Source: a virus
Length of the DNA: 20,876 nt
Direction: 5' to 3' (one strand)
IMG/VR virus record: IMGVR_UViG_3300002835_001349
Span: 1-20,876 of that record
Below are positions 447 through 20,542 of this stretch, one piece after another. A model generated the notes under the pieces. The model was not told the DNA's origin. It worked only from the letters and a program-made list of their open reading frames with translations, and did not search any database. A program made the translations under genes and the position numbers. The stretch's first letter is position 1; each line of letters begins with the position of its first letter.

Positions 447-815
447 TCATTCTAATACCTGTATATTATCTAAGATGCCTTTATCCAATCGTTCATGAGC
501 TTCCAAGTCTAACGGACAGTTATCTGTAGGATCGAATACATCTCCATTAATATCTCTACTAGCAAATGTACAGTACCACAATACCTCATCAGTAAGTGAA
601 GTAATATCATGGACTTTATCAGCTCTTATTACAACGAATGTTGGAGCATGGAATATTTTAGTCTTACCATCTACAGAAACCTCTACAGACCCTTTAGCTA
701 AAATAGATAAATGGTCGTATTTATGTTTATGCCCCCCTATGGTTTCACCTTTAGAGCTAAATACTTTCTGACGTAACCATATATTGGCAAAGCACCCGAC
801 TAAATCGTGAGACAT
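447..815 (-). CDS. Cupin-fold protein, 122 aa
   Basis: A single-domain cupin is the best reading. Metal-binding motif 1 is visible at residues 28-42: G-H-K-H-K-Y-D-H, then six residues and G. Motif 2 lies around 58-69 (P-T-F-V-V-I-R-A-D-K-V-H). Candidate metal ligands are His29, His31, His35 and His69. The glutamate usual in motif 1 is a histidine here (HxHx3H rather than HxHx3-4E); I recall similar HxHxxDH cupins of about 120 residues in other phages, of unknown function. The ATG overlaps the stop of the 149-aa gene upstream (TAATG), so the two are translationally coupled. It closes the chain that includes the desaturase, ACP and ketosynthase. It could be a small dioxygenase or isomerase acting on the cassette's product, or a non-enzymatic virion protein. 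Confidence 0.7.
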   Translation of the reverse strand: MSHDLVGCFANIWLRQKVFSSKGETIGGHKHKYDHLSILAKGSVEVSVDGKTKIFHAPTFVVIRADKVHDITSLTDEVLWYCTFASRDINGDVFDPTDNCPLDLEAHERLDKGILDNIQVLE

Positions 816-1264
816 TATAGCTCCTCTACCGTAGGGGTATTCCCGCTGAAAGGAGGGGCCTCGTAAACTACTTTACCAGTCATAGCGATAATATCAATTC
901 CGTTTCTATAAGCCCCTAGTCTTAAATAAGGGGAGTTGGTTAAAAGGGCTTTACTTCGTAACTCCCCATCTTGCACCACATAGTCTCTCAACTGATTCAT
1001 AGATCCGAAGAAATCTAAAGCCCCTTCAAAAGGAACTAATCCGGCAGTGGCTGCCACAGGGTTGATGTACCATGTATAGAAATTACTATTAGTGACCCAT
1101 GCAATGATATACCCCTCAGAACTTAAGGCTACTGCGGGGTAACTGTAAGGTTCATAGCCCTCTAGTACACGGGTTATAAGTAACCCTGCCGGCCCTTCTA
1201 CATCATAGCCAGCAATTTGGCCATCCTCAACTTTAAAATGGGTGAATCCGATTTTTTCTGACAT
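815..1264 (-). CDS. Unknown 149-aa protein of the acyl cassette, with NFYTWYI motif
   Basis: I do not recognise a family. The protein is soluble, with no signal peptide or membrane segment. It has an acidic C-terminal tail and a central stretch reading NSNFYTWYINP, then a hydrophobic segment with F-E-G-A-L-D-F-F-G-S and M-N-Q-L-R-D-Y. The heptapeptide NFYTWYI also occurs in the 60-aa protein encoded at 3876-4058, at the other edge of the enzyme genes, so the two probably share a small domain. The ATG at 1264 sits one base after the ketosynthase stop, and AAAGGGATATAACATG supplies a ribosome binding site inside the end of that gene. The stop overlaps the start of the cupin. Coupling suggests co-expression with the ketosynthase in fixed ratio. 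A structural, adaptor or enzyme-partner role are all open. Confidence 0.7.
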   Translation of the reverse strand: MSEKIGFTHFKVEDGQIAGYDVEGPAGLLITRVLEGYEPYSYPAVALSSEGYIIAWVTNSNFYTWYINPVAATAGLVPFEGALDFFGSMNQLRDYVVQDGELRSKALLTNSPYLRLGAYRNGIDIIAMTGKVVYEAPPFSGNTPTVEEL

Positions 1265-1265
1265 G

Positions 1266-2351
1266 TTATATCCCTTTCAATTTTAAAAGTACAGCAGCAT
1301 ACACGTTACCCATACCTGCACCAAGTAATAGTATAGAAGTTACTGCACAATGTTTATCATAACTAAGAAACTTATCATCAGTTTCAGTCCGATTTACAAT
1401 ACCCCGTATTAAACCTTTACGGGCATCGGATATAGCTATGCTCAACTCCACGACCCCTGAAGCTCCCATTGTATGTCCTATCTCACTTTTATACCCAGTG
1501 GCTATGAAATTGTCCCCGAAAAACCCTTGGATTGCCGCACGCTCCCCTTCGTTATTAGCTTTAGTACCTGTACCATGTGTCTTAATAAACGTAGGGTTTT
1601 CATAAGCCTTCATGCACCGGCTAATTACAGACTTATAACCTGCACCAGTTATAGTCATACCTATAGGGTTATTACACACTTCCGCACCTATAGCCACACT
1701 AACTACTTCAGCTATGGCTGGGTAGATAGACTCCTCTTTCTCTAAGAGAACGAAACCCCCTCCTTGGGATACGCGGAACCCCCCGTTAGTGCTGTCGAAT
1801 GCAGACGGCTTTCTTACAGCCTCGTCTTCTAATGACATACTAGCTTTAGTCATACCAAAGACCCTCATTACCGAGGCATTTACTTGGTCATCGATACCTA
1901 CCACAAGAACCCGATCTAATTGACCAGACTCAATAAGCCACTTAGCTTCTTGGATACCTTTGTAGCTACTTATACAACTCGTCGCGTCACTAGATATATA
2001 CCCTGTGAAACCAATCTCATTAGCAAACTTACCCGCGACAATATTGATGAGTCCTAGAAAAGGAGCGAAATAATGATAATCGGCTTCCAAAGGAGGGGTT
2101 AGTAAGGCTGCCCCAGCCCATTCTGAAGCCCCGCTAGCGAATACCACCCCACTACGATCCCCGCCTATAGTTCTAAGCTCTTTTTTTAGCTCCTTTGGGA
2201 ACATTTTATCAAGCATATTATGAACACTATATTTCACACCGTTAGCTGTCCCAGCCATAGACCCACTAACCATCCCAACCATCTGAGGGTGCTTACCCTC
2301 GTACTTTACAAATTCGTCAGCTACTATAGATGCGGTTTTAGTTACAAGCAT
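1266..2351 (-). CDS. Beta-ketoacyl-ACP synthase (KAS I/II type), 361 aa
   Basis: Enzymes of this family condense an acyl group carried on the active cysteine with malonyl-ACP, extending the chain by two carbons. The condensing triad is complete: Cys126 in SDATSCISSYKG, His259 in THGTGTKANNEGE, and His293 in YKSEIGHTMGASG, with the accompanying Lys288. Cys-His-His rather than Cys-His-Asn places it with FabB/FabF-type and polyketide ketosynthases, not FabH. The C-terminal GAGMGNVYAAVLL matches the usual glycine-rich end. At 361 residues it is shorter than the usual 400-420: the N-terminal strand and the G-x-V-T-P-x-G region are missing or strongly reduced. I chose the ATG at 2351, after GAGGAA, rather than upstream codons that would run deep into the ACP gene; it overlaps the ACP stop by 14 bases. 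No ketoreductase, dehydratase or malonyltransferase is in the window, so host FAS enzymes would have to supply substrates. Confidence 0.9.
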   Translation of the reverse strand: MLVTKTASIVADEFVKYEGKHPQMVGMVSGSMAGTANGVKYSVHNMLDKMFPKELKKELRTIGGDRSGVVFASGASEWAGAALLTPPLEADYHYFAPFLGLINIVAGKFANEIGFTGYISSDATSCISSYKGIQEAKWLIESGQLDRVLVVGIDDQVNASVMRVFGMTKASMSLEDEAVRKPSAFDSTNGGFRVSQGGGFVLLEKEESIYPAIAEVVSVAIGAEVCNNPIGMTITGAGYKSVISRCMKAYENPTFIKTHGTGTKANNEGERAAIQGFFGDNFIATGYKSEIGHTMGASGVVELSIAISDARKGLIRGIVNRTETDDKFLSYDKHCAVTSILLLGAGMGNVYAAVLLKLKGI

Positions 2352-2631
2352 CTTGGATTTCCTCTTCACTAGGTTCTTTAGTTTTATTAGTTTCGATAAA
2401 GTTGAGCAAGTCTCCGAACACAACATCCCCTTTAGGGAGGTTTTCTTCAAATTTATCGTTAGAAATGTCAAACAAAGAGCTTATCTCTGCATATACCATA
2501 ACGTAAGCAAAGCTGTCAATTCCACAGACACTTAGGCGTTCATTTTCCTCGATACTAATGTACTCGATATCCCCTGAACAGTTCTTTTCAAGTAGTTTAC
2601 GGCAAAGCTCTTTAATAGCGGTTCTAAGCAT
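2338..2631 (-). CDS. Acyl carrier protein, 97 aa
   Basis: Carrier proteins hold acyl chains as thioesters on a 4'-phosphopantetheine arm. The attachment motif is clear: C-G-I-D-S-F-A-Y-V, with Ser40 as the expected modified residue (the usual DSL is DSF here). The rest follows the ACP four-helix pattern: an N-terminal amphipathic helix (M-L-R-T-A-I-K-E-L), the serine at the start of helix II, a following F-D-I-S, and a C-terminal helix F-G-D-L-L-N-F-I. Overall charge is acidic, as expected. It carries an extra acidic tail of about 15 residues (KEPSEEEIQDACN). The ATG at 2631 follows AAAGGG by seven bases and overlaps the desaturase stop by 8 bases; the ketosynthase start lies inside its last codons. 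No phosphopantetheinyl transferase is in view, so host AcpS or Sfp-type enzyme would be needed. Confidence 0.85.
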   Translation of the reverse strand: MLRTAIKELCRKLLEKNCSGDIEYISIEENERLSVCGIDSFAYVMVYAEISSLFDISNDKFEENLPKGDVVFGDLLNFIETNKTKEPSEEEIQDACN

Positions 2632-3448
2632 GGCATAACCCTTTAATATGATTGATATGGTCAATTAAGATTTGATTAGTGTCGATATCCGTATCACCCG
2701 CGATATGGTTCAATAGCTTTATTTTGTCCTCATGAACCTCTCGCATAATAGCAAAGCTGAATAAATGATGGGTTTTATTTACACTCTCCCCGTAACCAAT
2801 ATTAACCTCGGATTGGTGTATCATATGTTTAGTACGGAAAGCCTCTATGAACTCTCTTTTGGATTCTTCAGAATACTCACAGACCTTCTTAGCTAAATCT
2901 CTCCAAGCCGCTTTGTGACGAGCTTCATCCCTAGAAATGTTCATAAACTTCTCTTTAAGCCATTCTGATTCAGCGGCTTTTGAGGCCTCTCGATATACGA
3001 CCGTGTTAGTCACTTCACCGAGTAAGAAACTAACTACGGCCTCATAAGGATTGCCCCAAGGGCTCTCCATGTTGATGTACTCTTGAGCCATTTTTTCAGA
3101 GGTTACAGTATTTTTAAAAGGAGGCTCACCTCTAACAGCGGCAACAAGCTCTTTCAGGAACAATCCGTGTCTGAACTCTTCATAGATAAGGACATAAGAA
3201 GTGAACATGAATACTTCATAAAAGATTGGCATATACTTGTCTGCGTCTTGTAAAGCTAGCTTATGCAAAATAAGTAACATCCCCATTCCACTCATTTCAC
3301 CGTCCCCGACTTGATCCATAGCAATTATCAGGTTCTTATCATTTTCAGAAAAAGTCTCGCAAATGGAGTTGTACTCAAAATCCTCGACGTCCCATTTGGC
3401 TTTTTCAGCGATTAGTCCGTATTTAGTTACAATCTCTATACCTTTCAT
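2624..3448 (-). CDS. Soluble diiron acyl-ACP desaturase-like enzyme, 274 aa
   Basis: The protein matches the ferritin-like acyl-ACP desaturase family, which uses a diiron centre, O2 and ferredoxin electrons to insert a double bond into an ACP-bound acyl chain. All six iron ligands of the plant stearoyl-ACP desaturase have equivalents: Glu51 (G-D-G-E-M-S-G), Glu91 and His94 in IYEEFRHGLF, Glu145 (S-F-L-L-G-E-V-T-N), and Glu175 and His178 in SRDEARHKAAW. The two motifs EExRHG and DExRH are the family signature. Length is close to short bacterial members such as mycobacterial DesA2 (about 275 aa). It is mostly helical, with no membrane segments. The ATG follows AGGGAG and overlaps the previous stop (ATGA); the ACP gene begins inside its last codons, which fits a carrier-substrate pair. 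No ferredoxin or reductase is visible. A hydroxylase or N-oxygenase activity on the same fold cannot be excluded. Confidence 0.85.
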   Translation of the reverse strand: MKGIEIVTKYGLIAEKAKWDVEDFEYNSICETFSENDKNLIIAMDQVGDGEMSGMGMLLILHKLALQDADKYMPIFYEVFMFTSYVLIYEEFRHGLFLKELVAAVRGEPPFKNTVTSEKMAQEYINMESPWGNPYEAVVSFLLGEVTNTVVYREASKAAESEWLKEKFMNISRDEARHKAAWRDLAKKVCEYSEESKREFIEAFRTKHMIHQSEVNIGYGESVNKTHHLFSFAIMREVHEDKIKLLNHIAGDTDIDTNQILIDHINHIKGLCHA

Positions 3449-3879
3449 ATCATCTCCCTTCCTAAGAAATATCCACGGACGTTTACATCCGCTTCCGCTA
3501 CGTATGGGTTATTTATAAACCCATTATATATTCTGCCATCGTCTAACAGCAATCCAAGCGCATATTGGTTATTCACAGAATGTATTACTAAGCAATCCGG
3601 TTGCTTCTCACAAGGTCTTAATTGTGAGTCAATGGAATCTCTTAAGTAATTCATGAGAGAAGGAAAATCCAATGATCTTACGTCAAGTGCTCCTCTCTTT
3701 ATTGACAGAATTACAATGCTACTCTCAATCTGGGCAGCATATGAAGTAATAAACTCCGAGCTATACCCTTTTATAAAGTAGTGCATAAACAAAGGTTTAA
3801 AGTAATTTGACTCACGCAGGTTAGGTTTGTCATCAAAGAGCTCATCTACCTTTAATGCAAGTTCAGTATAATTATTCAT
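3445..3879 (-). CDS. Unknown 144-aa protein coupled to the desaturase
   Basis: I do not recognise a family. The N-terminal two-thirds looks helical and amphipathic (M-N-N-Y-T-E-L-A-L-K-V-D-E-L-F, then a hydrophobic segment F-M-H-Y-F-I-K-G-Y). The C-terminal third looks like a small beta-rich domain (A-L-G-L-L-L-D-D-G-R-I-Y-N-G-F). Two cysteines lie close together in R-P-C-E-K-Q-P-D-C. There is no signal peptide or clear membrane segment. Both ends overlap neighbours by four bases (ATGA), so it is translated in step with the 60-aa protein before it and the desaturase after it. That placement suggests a partner of the desaturase-ACP-ketosynthase set, for example an acyl transferase, an ACP-loading factor or an acceptor for the acyl chain. 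This is context only; no catalytic motif is seen. Confidence 0.7.
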   Translation of the reverse strand: MNNYTELALKVDELFDDKPNLRESNYFKPLFMHYFIKGYSSEFITSYAAQIESSIVILSIKRGALDVRSLDFPSLMNYLRDSIDSQLRPCEKQPDCLVIHSVNNQYALGLLLDDGRIYNGFINNPYVAEADVNVRGYFLGREMI

Positions 3880-4058
3880 GATAATCCTTTTTCAAGCAGT
3901 TTATTATATGTCGTAAATTCAACAGTATATTCGTCTTCTTTCGGTTTAACTAGAGAAACCTCAGTTCCTTGGATATACCACGTATAAAAGTTATTCGCGC
4001 CTATAGATTTTTCACTAGGTTTGCCATTTTTTAATACAGTTTTAATTATAGTAATCAT
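3876..4058 (-). CDS. Unknown 60-aa protein with NFYTWYI motif
   Basis: This is a small soluble protein of unknown function. The start is taken as the ATG at 4058, because it forms an ATGA overlap with the stop of the 155-aa gene and follows GGGGGA; an in-frame ATG at 4073 would add five residues. The stretch I-G-A-N-N-F-Y-T-W-Y-I shares seven identical residues with the 149-aa protein at 815-1264. Alignable residues follow: a proline and glutamate, then a phenylalanine and N-K-L-L-E against N-Q-L-R-D. It may be a trimmed copy of the same domain. It lies between the tail-tip-like protein and the 144-aa protein and is coupled to both. Confidence 0.65.
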   Translation of the reverse strand: MITIIKTVLKNGKPSEKSIGANNFYTWYIQGTEVSLVKPKEDEYTVEFTTYNKLLEKGLS

Positions 4059-4522
4059 GCTGCTGTCCCCCATACTCTACAACTAGCTTGTGGTGTCGGG
4101 CAATCTGTAGTTGTAGCTGTGTTATAACTATTATATGTGTCGAAGAATATATTAATAGCGGTAGTTCCTGCAGGTAATGTAACCGTACCTGTTCCTGAGT
4201 TTATGTGTATTCCGTTAATAGTTATATTAGTACCCATTGTGTTTTCATACATTGCAGTAGTATGTGCTTCATTGGCTGTAAAATTAACTACAGTAGGAGC
4301 TGATAAAGGAACTGGTAATGGAACAGAAACAGATGTATCTTGGTAACTATTACCTCCTCCCTTGAGCTGACTATATCTAACACCGGTATCAAAAGCAGTA
4401 GCAACAACCTTAGCCCATACCAATGTACCGTTAGCTATTACTTGCGTGATACTGACACCATTTACCATTAAAGCATTTGCTACGTTTTCAGGTATTGTTA
4501 CCCCATTTACTACTAAAGGCAT
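4055..4522 (-). CDS. Tail-tip-like virion protein, 155 aa
   Basis: The N-terminus (M-P-L-V-V-N-G-V-T-I-P-E-N-V-A-N-A-L) followed by V-N-G-V-S-I-T-Q-V-I-A-N-G-T-L-V-W repeats a short V-N-G-V-x-I unit. This pattern is familiar from small phage structural proteins encoded after fibre genes. The rest is rich in Thr, Val and Asn and predicted beta (for example T-I-N-G-I-H-I-N-S-G-T-G-T-V-T-L), consistent with a receptor-binding tip or a decoration domain. Two cysteines in the last 20 residues (D-C-P-T-P-Q-A-S-C) could pair. It begins ten bases after the knob fibre gene and is coupled by ATGA to the next gene, so it links the fibre block to the acyl-enzyme block. Its function as a tip protein is inferred from composition and place. 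Confidence 0.65.
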   Translation of the reverse strand: MPLVVNGVTIPENVANALMVNGVSITQVIANGTLVWAKVVATAFDTGVRYSQLKGGGNSYQDTSVSVPLPVPLSAPTVVNFTANEAHTTAMYENTMGTNITINGIHINSGTGTVTLPAGTTAINIFFDTYNSYNTATTTDCPTPQASCRVWGTAA

Positions 4523-5544: not shown

Positions 5545-8064
5545 TTATACCAAGTTTTCATAAGTACTTGCTGAACTTTGTATTCTTAACCCATTTTTAG
5601 ATGCTGACATTTTAGTCTTTCTAAAATCTAGTAGTTCTTGCGCTGTCATTGCTCTTTTTAAAATAGTTAGATGTTTGTAATAACTCCAACATTCGTTACC
5701 ATTATCCCAGCCACCTAACTTCAAATCATAACCGTGTTGAGTTACATAATAATTAGAAGCAATTGTACCATAAGTAATCGTTCTAGTTCTTTGAAGTTTG
5801 TCATTCATCCAAGTTTCTATAGTTAAATTCGTACCAGATTTTACCATTGTTACGCATTGCCAATTCTGAAAGTACGAAGCAGGAGTAATACTGGAGTTAG
5901 TTGTTTGGTATAAATCATCACTATTAAGAGCTTTCCCCCAAAAAATATAACCACCACCTATAGTATTTGAATTACACCCCAATGATTCTAAATTATATCC
6001 AGTTAAATTTGCTTCACCTAGATGAGTACCAATGGGCTTCTTAAAATAACAGATACTCCAGTTAGCGTTCCAGTCTAATCCTATCGAAGTATTTAAGTTG
6101 TACTCTAACGCTGTTCCGCCAACAACATAAACATCTCCTGTTGAAAAACTTGAAGTTGATTGAGTTGGTATTACGGAATTCATAGAATCTTTCCCATTTA
6201 GATCAAGGGGAAAGTAAAAACTATCAGTAGGAGTGATAGGTTTAACTTCAATACTTTTCGTAATTAATGTATCGGATGTTATAGAATGAGTACCTTTAGC
6301 TAAAGTTTTTATTTCACCTGCTGATAGTGCTCTGTTATATATCGAGAGATTCTTAATAATCCAACTATAGCTAAATCTAAAGAAATCCGATGGCAAATCA
6401 GAGATAGTATATGTTACAGCTGATGCAACTAGAGTATTATTAATATACATAGAATATCCACTTGTGGTATCCCATACCCACGTAAATGAGTTCCATGCAT
6501 TTTGTATAATATACGGAATAGTATTAATAGTTCTATATGTAGATCCGTCTCTTAAAAACATTGTTTCTGGTATAACGTTATTAGCACTTTTTCTAAGCAT
6601 AAGAAATCTATTAGATGCTGGTGTTGTAAAATCTAACATATCAATATAACCAGTTGTACTATATAATTCAGGATAAATATAAGTTTCAAAATGAAAAGTA
6701 CCAACGGATGGATTTATAGACTTTGCTGAGTATTGTAAATATCCAGCACCTCTACTTCCATTTACATATTCCGTTGCAGATGCTTTTTTTTCTAATTGCC
6801 AATCTCTATAATATACAGTGCCATTATTATCGAGGTCAAGTCTTGTTCCAATATTAACTGTTGCTGCATTTATGAATGTATAAGTAAGGCTTAATTTTAC
6901 CCAACCATCCCACGGATTAACAATAATAGTTTTTTGTGGAATTTGAACATAAGCATTACTAGAATTGAGCTCAAATATATACATTTGAACACTAGCCCCA
7001 ACAGTTTCAGAGCGAACATATACAGTGTTTGTCCAAGTATCCCCCGCAATAGATGGAGTGAGAGCAAAGTTACTAGAGCTAAAATAACTTTCAGCACCAG
7101 AACTATTTGTATGTCTTAATACATTTCTTCCCAATGTATTATCATATACTATTGATAATGCACCATTGGCTGCTGATAAATAAGGCTGACGTAACCCATT
7201 TGAAAAATCACCATATGGTATTATATTAGTAGTAGCACTTTCTATCGCAACACCATTAAATGTTTTTGTATTACTTGTATCCGTCACCGGATTAGTTACA
7301 TTACCTTCGCCAGATAATAAATCATCTAAGCTTGGCTCTGTGCCATCACATAGATCAACTCTTGGGTATGCCCATTGCTGATTTGTTTCTGCTAATGTAG
7401 AATAATACAAATACGTTCGTAAAGATGTCGTTGTCGCCGTTGGGGAAAATTTCAAAGATGTTATGGATTGTAACTTCACTTTCTGTAAATTGTATACACC
7501 TGCATCTTCAACTGGGTAAACATTTCCGATATCAGAAGGGTATATATAAGCTACATATAATCTCCAATCAGACCCAGCTATACCACCAGACCAAAAATAC
7601 GGATTGGTGTTTACAGTGTTTGCTACTATATTATAAACTGAAGAATTGGTGGCGCACCCGAAATACCCAGTACCATTTCCCGCTACTTTGCGTCTAATCC
7701 ATACCGAAAATCTATATTTTTTAGTTCTATCGATAGTGAATGAAGAACCATCCCATCCACCATCAGGATCCGATGCTACATCATTTCCAAGTGCTTGCCA
7801 AATAGCTTGCGGTTCTCCAAATGGTCCAATATCTTCAACGATACTATTTTCAGAGGAAGTTCCATTTTGATTGAACCCAACTTGCGAACCAGTGGTTCCA
7901 ATTGTCCATGTGGAATAATCTATTTTATTCAAATATCCTATTCCTTTTGTCGACCCATCAAATGGGTAATGAGCCACTAATCCGTTTGTTACTAATGGTA
8001 AACGAGTGTCTATAGATTTAGATACTCTTAATTCACCATCATTTGTCAATCTTCCTGCTATCAT
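5545..8064 (-). CDS. Fibre protein with laminin-G-like and carbohydrate-binding-like domains, 839 aa
   Basis: This is a large multidomain virion protein, probably a glycan-binding fibre or tip. After an N-terminal leader with G-L-V-A-H-Y-P-F-D-G (about 28-37) come two jelly-roll regions resembling carbohydrate-binding modules: about 110-235 (K-Y-R-F-S-V-W-I-R-R-K) and about 280-428 (N-I-I-P-Y-G-D-F-S-N-G to Y-Y-R-D-W-Q-L-E). Two concanavalin/laminin-G-like domains follow: about 452-590 (G-T-F-H-F-E-T-Y-I-Y-P to N-L-S-I-Y-N-R-A-L-S-A-G-E-I) and about 614-817 (F-Y-F-P-L-D-L-N-G to L-T-I-L-K-R-A-M-T-A-Q-E-L). The closing N-R-A-L-S-x-x-E and K-R-A-M-T-x-x-E-L motifs are typical of LamG ends. Two hand-counted 60-base samples gave 28% and 33% GC, lower than the terminase region. 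The start follows AAAGGAATTATAATG, 13 bases after the 1016-aa gene. Confidence 0.85.
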   Translation of the reverse strand: MIAGRLTNDGELRVSKSIDTRLPLVTNGLVAHYPFDGSTKGIGYLNKIDYSTWTIGTTGSQVGFNQNGTSSENSIVEDIGPFGEPQAIWQALGNDVASDPDGGWDGSSFTIDRTKKYRFSVWIRRKVAGNGTGYFGCATNSSVYNIVANTVNTNPYFWSGGIAGSDWRLYVAYIYPSDIGNVYPVEDAGVYNLQKVKLQSITSLKFSPTATTTSLRTYLYYSTLAETNQQWAYPRVDLCDGTEPSLDDLLSGEGNVTNPVTDTSNTKTFNGVAIESATTNIIPYGDFSNGLRQPYLSAANGALSIVYDNTLGRNVLRHTNSSGAESYFSSSNFALTPSIAGDTWTNTVYVRSETVGASVQMYIFELNSSNAYVQIPQKTIIVNPWDGWVKLSLTYTFINAATVNIGTRLDLDNNGTVYYRDWQLEKKASATEYVNGSRGAGYLQYSAKSINPSVGTFHFETYIYPELYSTTGYIDMLDFTTPASNRFLMLRKSANNVIPETMFLRDGSTYRTINTIPYIIQNAWNSFTWVWDTTSGYSMYINNTLVASAVTYTISDLPSDFFRFSYSWIIKNLSIYNRALSAGEIKTLAKGTHSITSDTLITKSIEVKPITPTDSFYFPLDLNGKDSMNSVIPTQSTSSFSTGDVYVVGGTALEYNLNTSIGLDWNANWSICYFKKPIGTHLGEANLTGYNLESLGCNSNTIGGGYIFWGKALNSDDLYQTTNSSITPASYFQNWQCVTMVKSGTNLTIETWMNDKLQRTRTITYGTIASNYYVTQHGYDLKLGGWDNGNECWSYYKHLTILKRAMTAQELLDFRKTKMSASKNGLRIQSSASTYENLV

Positions 8065-11807: not shown

Positions 11808-11843
11808 GTTGCTAATAGGCAACAGTAGGCTCGAAAGCCCACT
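11808..11843 (-). terminator. Two adjacent hairpins after the 451-aa fibre gene
   Basis: On the minus-strand RNA, an 8-bp stem with one G-U pair (arms 11836-11843 and 11824-11831) closes a UUCG loop. It is directly followed by a second 5-bp stem GTTGC/GCAAC (11819-11823 and 11808-11812) with a six-base loop. The first begins 18 bases after the stop of the 451-aa gene. There is no run of T after either stem, so intrinsic termination is not certain. The pair may instead protect or mark an RNA end, or reduce read-through into the 199-aa gene. Confidence 0.45.
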
Positions 11844-11860
11844 ATATACTATTTTAAAGC

Positions 11861-13216
11861 TTACTCTGCAGTATATGGATACTGAACAGTAACAGCTTTG
11901 CCATCAAATTGTCCAGTTGTATTTGGGTGCAATTGATATTCTTTACCTGATACAAGTGTTACAGGAATGTCGTAAGATACGAACAATTCATCAGTGTGAC
12001 GAACAGTTGCAAAGTTGAAGATCATTCCATTCTTTGGAGTATGCGTAAGAGTGATTTTATCAGCAGCTACAGATAGTCCTTCAGTATAGAAAATAGCTCC
12101 ACCAACTGTAATTGCGCTATCTACTTCTGCTTTGCTATAAACACTGATGTTGGTGCGAGCAGTAGCAACATTGGTAAGATCAGAAAGGTTGTTAGCTTTT
12201 ACAAGTTTTGTACCTTCAGCAGCAATAGCACGAGTTTCTTCTGCAGTAATAAGACCTTCAAGGCGAGTTACTTCAGATTCACGATCTGCAATCTCATCAT
12301 CCAATAGACCTTCGATACGTCCTTCTTCTGCAACACGTGCGTTATGCTCAGTAGCAGCAGCAGCCTCGATAGCAGATTTAGCATCAGCAACAGATTTAGC
12401 TACAGAACCTACAGTGCTTACATCTCCATTAAGAACATTAATCGCATCTTCTACTTCTTCAAGAGTATCGAATGCTTCAGAAACAGAACCTTTAAGTTCA
12501 TTTTTTGCATCTGTAATTTTATTTGTAATTGCAGACAATACATCAGTATCTGGATCAACATTGATATAATCAGCAATTTCTTTCAATGTGTTAAGTGCTT
12601 CAGGAGCAGCATTAATAACATCAGAGATAGCTTTAGCCATAGAACCTTCGACAGTACTATCACCTTCAATAATATCAAGACGACCTTCGATAGCAGTAAT
12701 ATCAGAACTTGCACTAGCGTTCAATGAATCAGCGTAACTATTTGCATCAGCAAGAGCTTTAGCGATTGAACCAACAGTAGAAGCATCACCTTCTACAACA
12801 TCCAAGCGTCCAGACAATCCTAGATCAACATCTTCAAGTTCAGAGACCTTTTCAGCAAAACTTGCAACAACTTCATTAATAGAAGCAACGATATTACTTT
12901 TTGCAGCAGTAGTCAACTCAGAAAGAGTGCCCTCTACACCTTTAGCACGATCATCAGCAGCTTTAATTGCAGCATCAAGCTTAACGTCAGCATCTCCAAG
13001 AGAAACAGCAGCAGCAATATAGTTACTTGAACCATTTACAACATATGCACCATCAGCAGCTAAGCCAGCACCAACTTGAGAAGCATCAACTTCTGTTTGA
13101 AGAGCAGTATCTTTAGTACTACGAGCAGCAGCTTCATTATCGATATTTGTTTGTAGAGTAGTAAGACTTGTTTCCAAACCGTATACAGTACTTTTTGAAC
13201 GAGTTAAAACAGCCAT
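11861..13216 (-). CDS. Coiled-coil tail fibre or appendage protein, 451 aa
   Basis: The N-terminal 370 residues are strongly helical with Ala-, Glu- and Asp-rich heptad-like spacing, as in fibre stalks. A repeated unit is visible at about 142-165 (E-G-D-A-S-T-V-G-S-I-A-K-A-L), 183-203 (E-G-D-S-T-V-E-G-S-M-A-K-A) and 263-285 (N-G-D-V-S-T-V-G-S-V-A-K-S). Between them lies A-P-E-A-L-N-T-L-K-E-I-A-D, a module shared with many phage fibres and with the next two fibre genes. The last 80 residues form a separate beta-rich domain (G-G-A-I-F-Y-T-E-G to V-T-V-Q-Y-P-Y), a likely tip or assembly domain. The start follows AAGGAG. The gene ends at the tandem hairpins, so it may close one transcription unit. 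Confidence 0.8.
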   Translation of the reverse strand: MAVLTRSKSTVYGLETSLTTLQTNIDNEAAARSTKDTALQTEVDASQVGAGLAADGAYVVNGSSNYIAAAVSLGDADVKLDAAIKAADDRAKGVEGTLSELTTAAKSNIVASINEVVASFAEKVSELEDVDLGLSGRLDVVEGDASTVGSIAKALADANSYADSLNASASSDITAIEGRLDIIEGDSTVEGSMAKAISDVINAAPEALNTLKEIADYINVDPDTDVLSAITNKITDAKNELKGSVSEAFDTLEEVEDAINVLNGDVSTVGSVAKSVADAKSAIEAAAATEHNARVAEEGRIEGLLDDEIADRESEVTRLEGLITAEETRAIAAEGTKLVKANNLSDLTNVATARTNISVYSKAEVDSAITVGGAIFYTEGLSVAADKITLTHTPKNGMIFNFATVRHTDELFVSYDIPVTLVSGKEYQLHPNTTGQFDGKAVTVQYPYTAE

Positions 13217-19998: not shown

Positions 19999-20385
19999 CT
20001 ATATTTCTATTAAATTTCGTACTTGTGCAGGGTAATCCGCATTCATACACTCTACATACGCAAGTTCCACTATAGTAAGGTCACACTCCACCAATTCACT
20101 GCATCCATCAAACTCAAATGCTGGGTAGTATCGATGTTCTTTTAGTCGTTCCAGTAATGCAGCCTCAACTACATAGTTATTATGTGTTCGATCATTGCGC
20201 AGTATCTCTATCTTTGGGAGAAACTTATACACCCCATGAATAGCTTCTGATAACTCCAATGCTCGCTTAAGCGCACACCGATTGGTAGTCCCAATCTTTA
20301 TAACAGATTTACCATCCAACTCTATACGCAACAGGTACACTTCACCATCGATCTTGCGCGGCTCCCTAGCTTTACCTCGTGCCAT
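19999..20385 (-). CDS. GIY-YIG-like (T5orf172/MUG113-type) protein, 128 aa
   Basis: The core G-E-V-Y-L-L-R-I (14-21), V-I-K-I-G-T-T-N-R (28-36) and a downstream arginine/leucine helix follow the GIY-YIG fold in its V-Y-x-L ... K-I-G-x-T variant. Later elements E-A-A-L-L-E-R-L-K (74-82) and F-D-G-C-S-E-L-V-E-C (92-101) correspond to the metal-binding Glu helix and the closing strand. The start at 20385 (ATG) is chosen over a TTG at 20400, because ATG follows the previous stop by one base. In related families the fold is a nuclease, but whether this one cuts DNA is not shown. A nuclease beside the terminase genes could trim or nick DNA during packaging, or be a degenerate homing endonuclease. 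Confidence 0.55.
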   Translation of the reverse strand: MARGKAREPRKIDGEVYLLRIELDGKSVIKIGTTNRCALKRALELSEAIHGVYKFLPKIEILRNDRTHNNYVVEAALLERLKEHRYYPAFEFDGCSELVECDLTIVELAYVECMNADYPAQVRNLIEI

Positions 20386-20386
20386 C

Positions 20387-20542
20387 TTAGATCCACCCAA
20401 GTAACAGCAATATCTTTTCTACACCCAAGTACCATGCATAAGGAATAAAGAATATAGCAAAAAACGTAGACCAGAACCCTTTAGCTAGGACAATCCCAAC
20501 AAGCCAACTAATAACACATAGTGCAGTAAATACGTTACTCAT
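20387..20542 (-). CDS. Small two-helix membrane protein, holin-like, 51 aa
   Basis: This short gene was read directly from the sequence. The ATG at 20542 follows AAAGGG and lies two bases after the upstream stop; the stop is just before the next ATG. The protein is almost entirely hydrophobic: a first segment at about residues 5-20 (F-T-A-L-C-V-I-S-W-L-V-G-I-V-L-A) and a second at about 24-50, interrupted by Pro34 and a charged V-E-K at 41-43. Size, two candidate membrane helices and a position upstream of the terminase genes resemble the holin gene that precedes the terminases in T7-like phages. Lysis function is inferred from this alone, and any small inner-membrane protein would fit equally. 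Confidence 0.55.
   Translation of the reverse strand: MSNVFTALCVISWLVGIVLAKGFWSTFFAIFFIPYAWYLGVEKILLLLGWI

Follow-up and report, generated by a model that had tools for sequence, protein, structure and literature searches.

A phage diiron protein with a predicted acyl-ACP desaturase-like fold, encoded beside an acyl carrier protein and a ketosynthase

What might a protein with the iron ligands of an acyl-acyl carrier protein (ACP) desaturase do in a phage, and what could it act upon? The question is raised by a virus record of 20,876 bp, the whole of which was analyzed and is referred to below as the window. A predicted protein at 17321-19201 matches the terminase large subunit (PHROG 38), and N4-like phages are among the nearest named records. 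A sister contig in IMG/VR agrees with the window without a mismatch across the 10,360 bp that were compared, and reaches past its low-coordinate end. A T5orf172-domain protein is encoded at 20001-20400.

The gene of interest (2624..3448, minus strand) encodes a ferritin-like, acyl-ACP desaturase-like diiron enzyme of 274 aa, described from ORF reading, Pfam, alignment, AF2 modeling, and fold search. It lies on the minus strand in a closely packed run of genes that follows a tail-gene block, the last member of which is a probable tail protein (4055..4522, minus strand; assigned by position). The run opens with an uncharacterized 144 aa protein (3445..3879), which overlaps the start of the diiron gene by 4 nt. 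After the diiron gene comes an ACP of 97 aa (2338..2631), with an ATG start that falls in the last part of the diiron gene, giving an overlap of 8 nt, and with S40, in GIDSF, as the phosphopantetheine serine. The ACP gene in turn overlaps by 14 nt that of a FabF-like beta-ketoacyl-ACP synthase (KS; 1266..2351, 361 aa from its ATG), in which C126, H259, K288, and H293 are kept. The KS gene is followed immediately by that of an uncharacterized 149 aa protein (815..1264; ORF list, Pfam, and PHROG), and the run ends with a small cupin (447..815; Pfam Cupin_2, 4e-7; PHROG 12032, 1.5e-5). The cupin also resembles phage short-tail-fibre cupins, and a cupin is present in another diiron-bearing phage, L091. 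The string NFYTWYI is common to two otherwise dissimilar small proteins that flank the cassette (815-1264 and 3876-4073). The 144 aa ORF could possibly be the counterpart of an ORF of ~170 aa found upstream of the ACP gene in other diiron-bearing phages; this pairing was tried by alignment (13%-19% identity) and BLASTP (E 9), neither of which supports it.

An earlier note on this DNA had proposed that the protein keeps all six diiron ligands of acyl-ACP desaturases, and direct reading of the ORF bears this out. The ligands are E51 (codon 3296-3298) in VGDGE, E91 (3176-3178) and H94 (3167-3169) in YEEFRHG, E145 (3014-3016) in LLGE, and E175 (2924-2926) and H178 (2915-2917) in RDEARH. All six are invariant in a six-row alignment of the window protein with five homologues from four other phage lineages, which are about 26%-28% identical to it. 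Only 35 of the 274 positions are invariant in this alignment, and the chance that all six ligands would fall among them at random is 2.9e-6, a value that is idealized in that conservation tends to favor Glu, His, Trp, and Gly in any case. The other invariant residues include W19, G50, E90, R93, W131, Y135, N148, D174, R177, W182, and H211. Between the diiron genes of L010 and L017, dN is 0.049 and dS is 0.289, and the ratio of 0.17 indicates purifying selection. The earlier reading of ligand conservation as a sign of function rather than decay is thus supported. It should be noted that the paired ExxH motif occurs throughout the diiron carboxylate superfamily; a desaturase is therefore not singled out by these six residues by themselves.

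Relatives of the diiron protein are hard to find by direct search. Single-sequence searches of phages and GTDB genomes gave nothing useful, that of plasmids gave one match at 22% identity, and that of IMG/VR returned solely the 100% identical protein in the sister contig; PHROGs holds no family for it. The relatives surfaced only by way of the neighboring KS. A homologue was found directly after the KS gene in four loci (L009, L010, L017, and L023), and those of L090 and L091 were added by profile search. Additional scans, for which the diiron or KS alignments had been enlarged, gave no diiron lineage beyond the last two. In total, the gene occurs in five phage lineages, window included. All loci found have it next to an ACP-KS pair and keep the tight packing, with the order differing: before the ACP gene in the window, after the KS gene in the other lineages. 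Two observations on individual loci may be added. In L091 the diiron ORF (6001-6708) ends at a TAA ~30 residues before its relatives, with ligands intact and with homology that seems to run past the stop; and in L017 the gene directly after the diiron gene (7309-7896) encodes a 2OG-Fe(II) oxygenase, a second oxygen-using enzyme in the cassette.

The ACP-KS pair is far more common. The window KS has a 37.5% identical relative in Manatee Spring phage, where it overlaps an ACP-like gene, and a two-KS alignment recovered 475 KS relatives in IMG/VR. The best 80 of these were retrieved. An ACP ORF is on the same strand in 90 of 91 KS loci (the exception is L088, a record that begins within the KS gene), and in most the end of the ACP gene overlaps the start of the KS gene; a gap of 368-440 nt separates them in L030, L038, L040, and L043. 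A second set of 74 loci, partly from the same contigs, includes an adjacent ACP in 73, and the exception begins at a contig edge. The pair is seen, for example, at L003:8660-10038, as well as on about 130 other IMG/VR contigs, usually with overlap and with catalytic residues intact. The two genes are separated by one for a DUF2269 membrane protein in the L030/L038 group (L030:1179-1637).

Both partners look active, as far as sequence can tell, because the KS Cys, His, Lys, and His and the Asp-Ser of the ACP are 100% conserved across 83 loci. The KS profile matches solved FabF structures in the PDB at E 1e-34 with Cys/His/Lys/His in register, so the FabF-type set (Cys-His-His triad plus Lys) is present. 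The window KS itself matches Pfam ketoacyl-synt (2e-12) and Ketoacyl-synt_C (3e-10), with an N-terminal part that is compact and divergent. The window ACP searched alone has no Pfam match; solved ACPs are matched at E 3e-6 by a profile built from 18 phage sequences, and the conserved Asp-Ser agrees with the DSL-type site of type II ACPs. The PHROG matched by the pair (35856) is annotated as unknown function. At the majority of KS loci, the neighbors of the pair are virion structural genes: a tail or stabilization-type protein is commonly encoded before it, and an uncharacterized protein of ~151 aa and large internal-type proteins after it. Such a location hints that the pair acts late or in connection with the virion. 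The ~151 aa protein, to which no Pfam family could be convincingly assigned, is encoded immediately after the KS at L003:10040-10480 and in 65 other loci (most of the 83), and is a candidate partner or substrate.

Against this background, the diiron gene is a rare, optional third member of a widespread phage ACP-KS unit, which the earlier note, though aware of the phage ACP, did not recognize. It is present in six of 49 KS-phage records, all six already known from the searches above; as most ACP-KS phages are without it, it is dispensable for whatever the pair does. Diiron-bearing loci fall in two places in the KS tree, which fits two gains or losses of the gene (the program gave a long-branch warning for this tree).

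Is the diiron protein, then, a desaturase? By sequence scores, the assignment made in the earlier note is only partly sustained. The window protein scores 21.7 bits against Pfam FA_desaturase_2 (PF03405), just below the cut-off of 22.7, and five of the six family members match this model at E up to 1. The best natural PDB sequence match of the diiron profile is the mycobacterial desaturase DesA2 (E 0.004), and the link to four actinobacterial acyl-ACP desaturases is weak (hhalign probability 14.5). When the phage family is aligned with annotated actinobacterial acyl-ACP desaturases, the residues W19, E90, H94, E145, D174, and H178 are invariant and E51 is unaligned by sequence. Of these, W19, D174, and H94 fall at what we take to be the positions of castor W62, D228, and H146, which form the electron route of the castor enzyme. 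In the castor enzyme, the position of Thr199, close to the third Glu ligand, affects whether the outcome is that of a desaturase or an oxidase; the phage family has an invariant Asn148 there. The four actinobacterial desaturases also have no Thr in that column, so this feature is not universal. Given the Pfam score, the profile comparison, and Asn148, we would not file the protein as a strict member of FA_desaturase_2.

AF2 models based on six sequences were obtained for the window protein (pLDDT 82, pTM 0.82) and for its L010 homologue, 28% identical to it (pLDDT 84, pTM 0.86). In the window model, the six ligands are carried by four helical segments (45-52, 69-106, 134-158, and 162-192) in the order 1-2-1-2, as in class II diiron proteins. 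Foldseek placed desaturases first for both models at modest E-values (7e-4 to 4e-3). A second look with VIA, which re-ranked Foldseek's PDB list for both models, put plant acyl-ACP desaturases at ranks 1-9 each time, with 244-255 residues aligned, rmsd 3.7-4.7 Å, and Z of 15.5-16.5 (window) and 15.7-16.5 (L010). Next came phenol hydroxylase (Z 15.0 and 14.2 for window and L010, respectively) and PaaC (14.0 and 13.0); lower placings included R2lox (13.5 and 13.9) and R2 (12.6 and 13.6). BFVD held no close viral structure for the protein (best E 0.3, a phage "rubrerythrin"). The earlier note had named a better fit to R2 or rubrerythrin as grounds for giving up its proposal; among the matches listed, the nearest fold in both models is that of the plant acyl-ACP desaturases. 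What stands of the original identification is thus the diiron site and fold; the Pfam score, weak profile link, and Asn148 in place of Thr199 weigh against a plain desaturase label. The phage family is a new, distant branch near the acyl-ACP desaturases that comes with a ready-made substrate carrier; to the extent that fold, ligands, and partners can tell, its mode of action resembles that of an acyl-ACP desaturase.

Other oxygen-using chemistry on the same carrier has to be weighed against desaturation. The enzyme may hydroxylate or otherwise oxygenate the ACP-bound chain, or cleave an aldehyde as aldehyde-deformylating oxygenases do. The invariant Asn at the Thr199 position would suit such an activity, and both phenol hydroxylase and aldehyde-deformylating oxygenase (Z 13.2 for window, 13.7 for L010) come after the desaturases in the fold lists. 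Against it stand the top ranking of desaturases for both models and the retention of the W19/D174/H94 trio. We consider an oxygenase unlikely, though less so than the alternatives that follow. Another proposal is an N-oxygenase of the AurF/CmlI type, or an enzyme resembling the azoxy-synthase VlmB, acting on a carrier-bound amine from a small biosynthetic cassette. The window protein does have an AurF match (PF11583, E 5e-5, 23.0 bits vs. a cut-off of 29.6), and VlmB is among the fold matches (Z 13.6). It is improbable all the same: one of six family members matches AurF, desaturases score 2-3 Z units higher, and no gene for adenylation or amino-acid loading lies in the vicinity. In addition, AurF has an extra histidine ligand four residues ahead of the last Glu ligand, a position that is an invariant Ile171 in the phage family.

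The remaining alternatives take the protein away from acyl chains altogether. It might be a protein of the rubrerythrin or ferritin kind, with a role in iron handling or oxidative stress, that lies beside ACP and KS by chance, given that Pfam Rubrerythrin (PF02915) scores 24.1 for the window protein, above its cut-off of 22.8, and weakly matches all six members. That match covers residues 144-217 only, half of the four-helix site; the VIA rows listed include no rubrerythrin. The 274 aa protein has desaturase-like length and topology, with about 250 residues aligned. The gene is found only beside ACP-KS and no rubredoxin-like domain was seen, and we hold this explanation to be about as improbable as the last. 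A gene in decay, or accidental cargo without function, would fit the rarity of the gene (five lineages) and the early TAA, relative to the profile, of the L091 copy, yet the chance of this appears slim given that ligands survive at about 26%-28% identity, dN/dS is low for the one pair compared, and packing is kept everywhere. Least probable of all is an R2-like or R2lox-like oxidase related to the ribonucleotide reductase subunit. R2lox is close behind the desaturases in Foldseek for the L010 model (ranks 7 and 10 onward) and L090 has weak, local similarity to a phage R2, but the VIA Z over both models is 13.0-13.9 for R2lox and 12.5-13.6 for R2, compared with 16.5 for desaturases, and no R1 partner gene was noticed nearby. 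The spacing of ligands points the same way. Between the second and third Glu ligands there are 89 residues in Escherichia coli R2; the spacing of 54 in the phage protein is near that of acyl-ACP desaturases (53).

Comparison with known systems helps to define what is unusual here. The plant enzymes that lie nearest in fold to the two models (castor stearoyl-ACP delta-9, ivy delta-4, and Thunbergia delta-6 desaturases; PF03405) share with the phage protein the EExRHG and DExRH motifs, and the ACP partner gene adjoins the phage gene. The ligand spacing is 40/54/30 in the phage protein and 38/53/33 in castor. Identity to the plant enzymes is 12%-17%, and the phage protein is about 70 residues shorter, with Asn148 for Thr199. 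Unlike them, it is encoded by a phage, beside an ACP and KS of its own, and falls below the Pfam cut-off. DesA2 (1za0) is similar in length (275 aa), and its motifs align at E91/H94, E145, and E175/H178; the EEFRH of the phage family is EEHLH in DesA2. Among cellular proteins, the nearest relative to emerge, and the strongest link of all, is a plasmid "ferritin" of 264 aa (Cupriavidus, Burkholderia, Methylibium) that does pass FA_desaturase_2 (31.5 vs. 22.7) and matches the phage diiron profile at hhalign probability 89 (E 2e-6, 198 columns). It is about 22% identical to the phage protein, and no ACP or KS is listed beside the plasmid gene. The Methylibium orthologue (L104:3291-5843) adjoins genes for an enoyl-CoA hydratase/crotonase-family protein and an iron-containing redox enzyme, possibly an uncharacterized cellular fatty acyl cluster.

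Lipid genes have been described in viruses before. Fatty acid desaturases of cyanophages (Roitman et al. 2018, as cited in PMC8224337) and of cryopeg viruses (PMC7300359) were proposed to desaturate host fatty acids. Those of the cryopeg viruses were linked to stearoyl-CoA desaturase 4ZYO and to histidine-cluster motifs, and are thus of the membrane type, with a fold and metal site that differ from those of the soluble, ACP-dependent type considered here. Similar by gene type are the acpP-fabF-fabG genes of roseobacter prophages (PMC8224337) and the ACP of Alteromonas phage R22Y, assigned to Schitoviridae (PMC11705849), in that an ACP or FabF-type KS is phage-borne, as in the window. In contrast to the window cassette, the excerpts of these two papers make no mention of a soluble diiron desaturase-like gene. 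A search of full-text literature, with subscription titles outside its scope, returned no paper joining virus, acyl-ACP desaturase, and auxiliary metabolic.

An enzyme of this kind would need electrons, and the earlier note held that the ferredoxin partner is absent. This agrees with our search for Fer2-type ferredoxins, which found none in 11 records (the window, the sister contig, and nine related records, with a 43.6 kb contig included); the control search was positive in 12 of 14 genomes. The result makes a host electron donor likely. Because the records are fragments, host supply is unproven, and borrowing of electrons from the host is best described as plausible. L010 includes a thioredoxin gene (11829-12197), the product of which is a possible reductant for the diiron protein.

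How could these parts work together? The loci hold a six-ligand motif, a desaturase-like fold by prediction, and an overlapping ACP-KS-diiron cassette in five lineages. The reading that we favor, with guarded confidence, is that the protein is a ferritin-fold diiron enzyme that oxidizes, and most likely desaturates (with O2 and two electrons), an acyl chain carried by the ACP of the phage itself. A host phosphopantetheinyl transferase would arm the ACP, and an acyl chain would then be loaded or extended by host fatty acid synthesis or by the phage KS. The diiron enzyme, presumably metal-loaded, would modify the chain held on the ACP, most likely by adding a double bond, with a ferredoxin or another reductase of the host as the probable source of electrons. 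The product could be passed to a host or phage acceptor, and may end up in the host membrane, on a virion protein, or as a free product. The position of the cassette in a late structural/tail gene block suggests late expression.

The same placement is the basis for a broader and more speculative idea, which we think rather unlikely as it stands: that hundreds of tailed phages use the ACP-KS unit, in some cases with the diiron oxidase, to make a phage-specific acyl group that is either fixed to a protein of the virion or tail or let out as a fatty acid signal, and that adjustment of host membranes is not the purpose. As the unit is common and lies in the structural block, phage use of fatty acyl groups is directly testable. 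If the favored reading is correct, these phages would run a small acyl-ACP pathway, with a carrier, a chain-building enzyme, and an O2-dependent modifying enzyme, which exceeds the single borrowed lipid genes of most published cases compared. This suggests that some phages remodel fatty acyl chains by a small pathway of their own.
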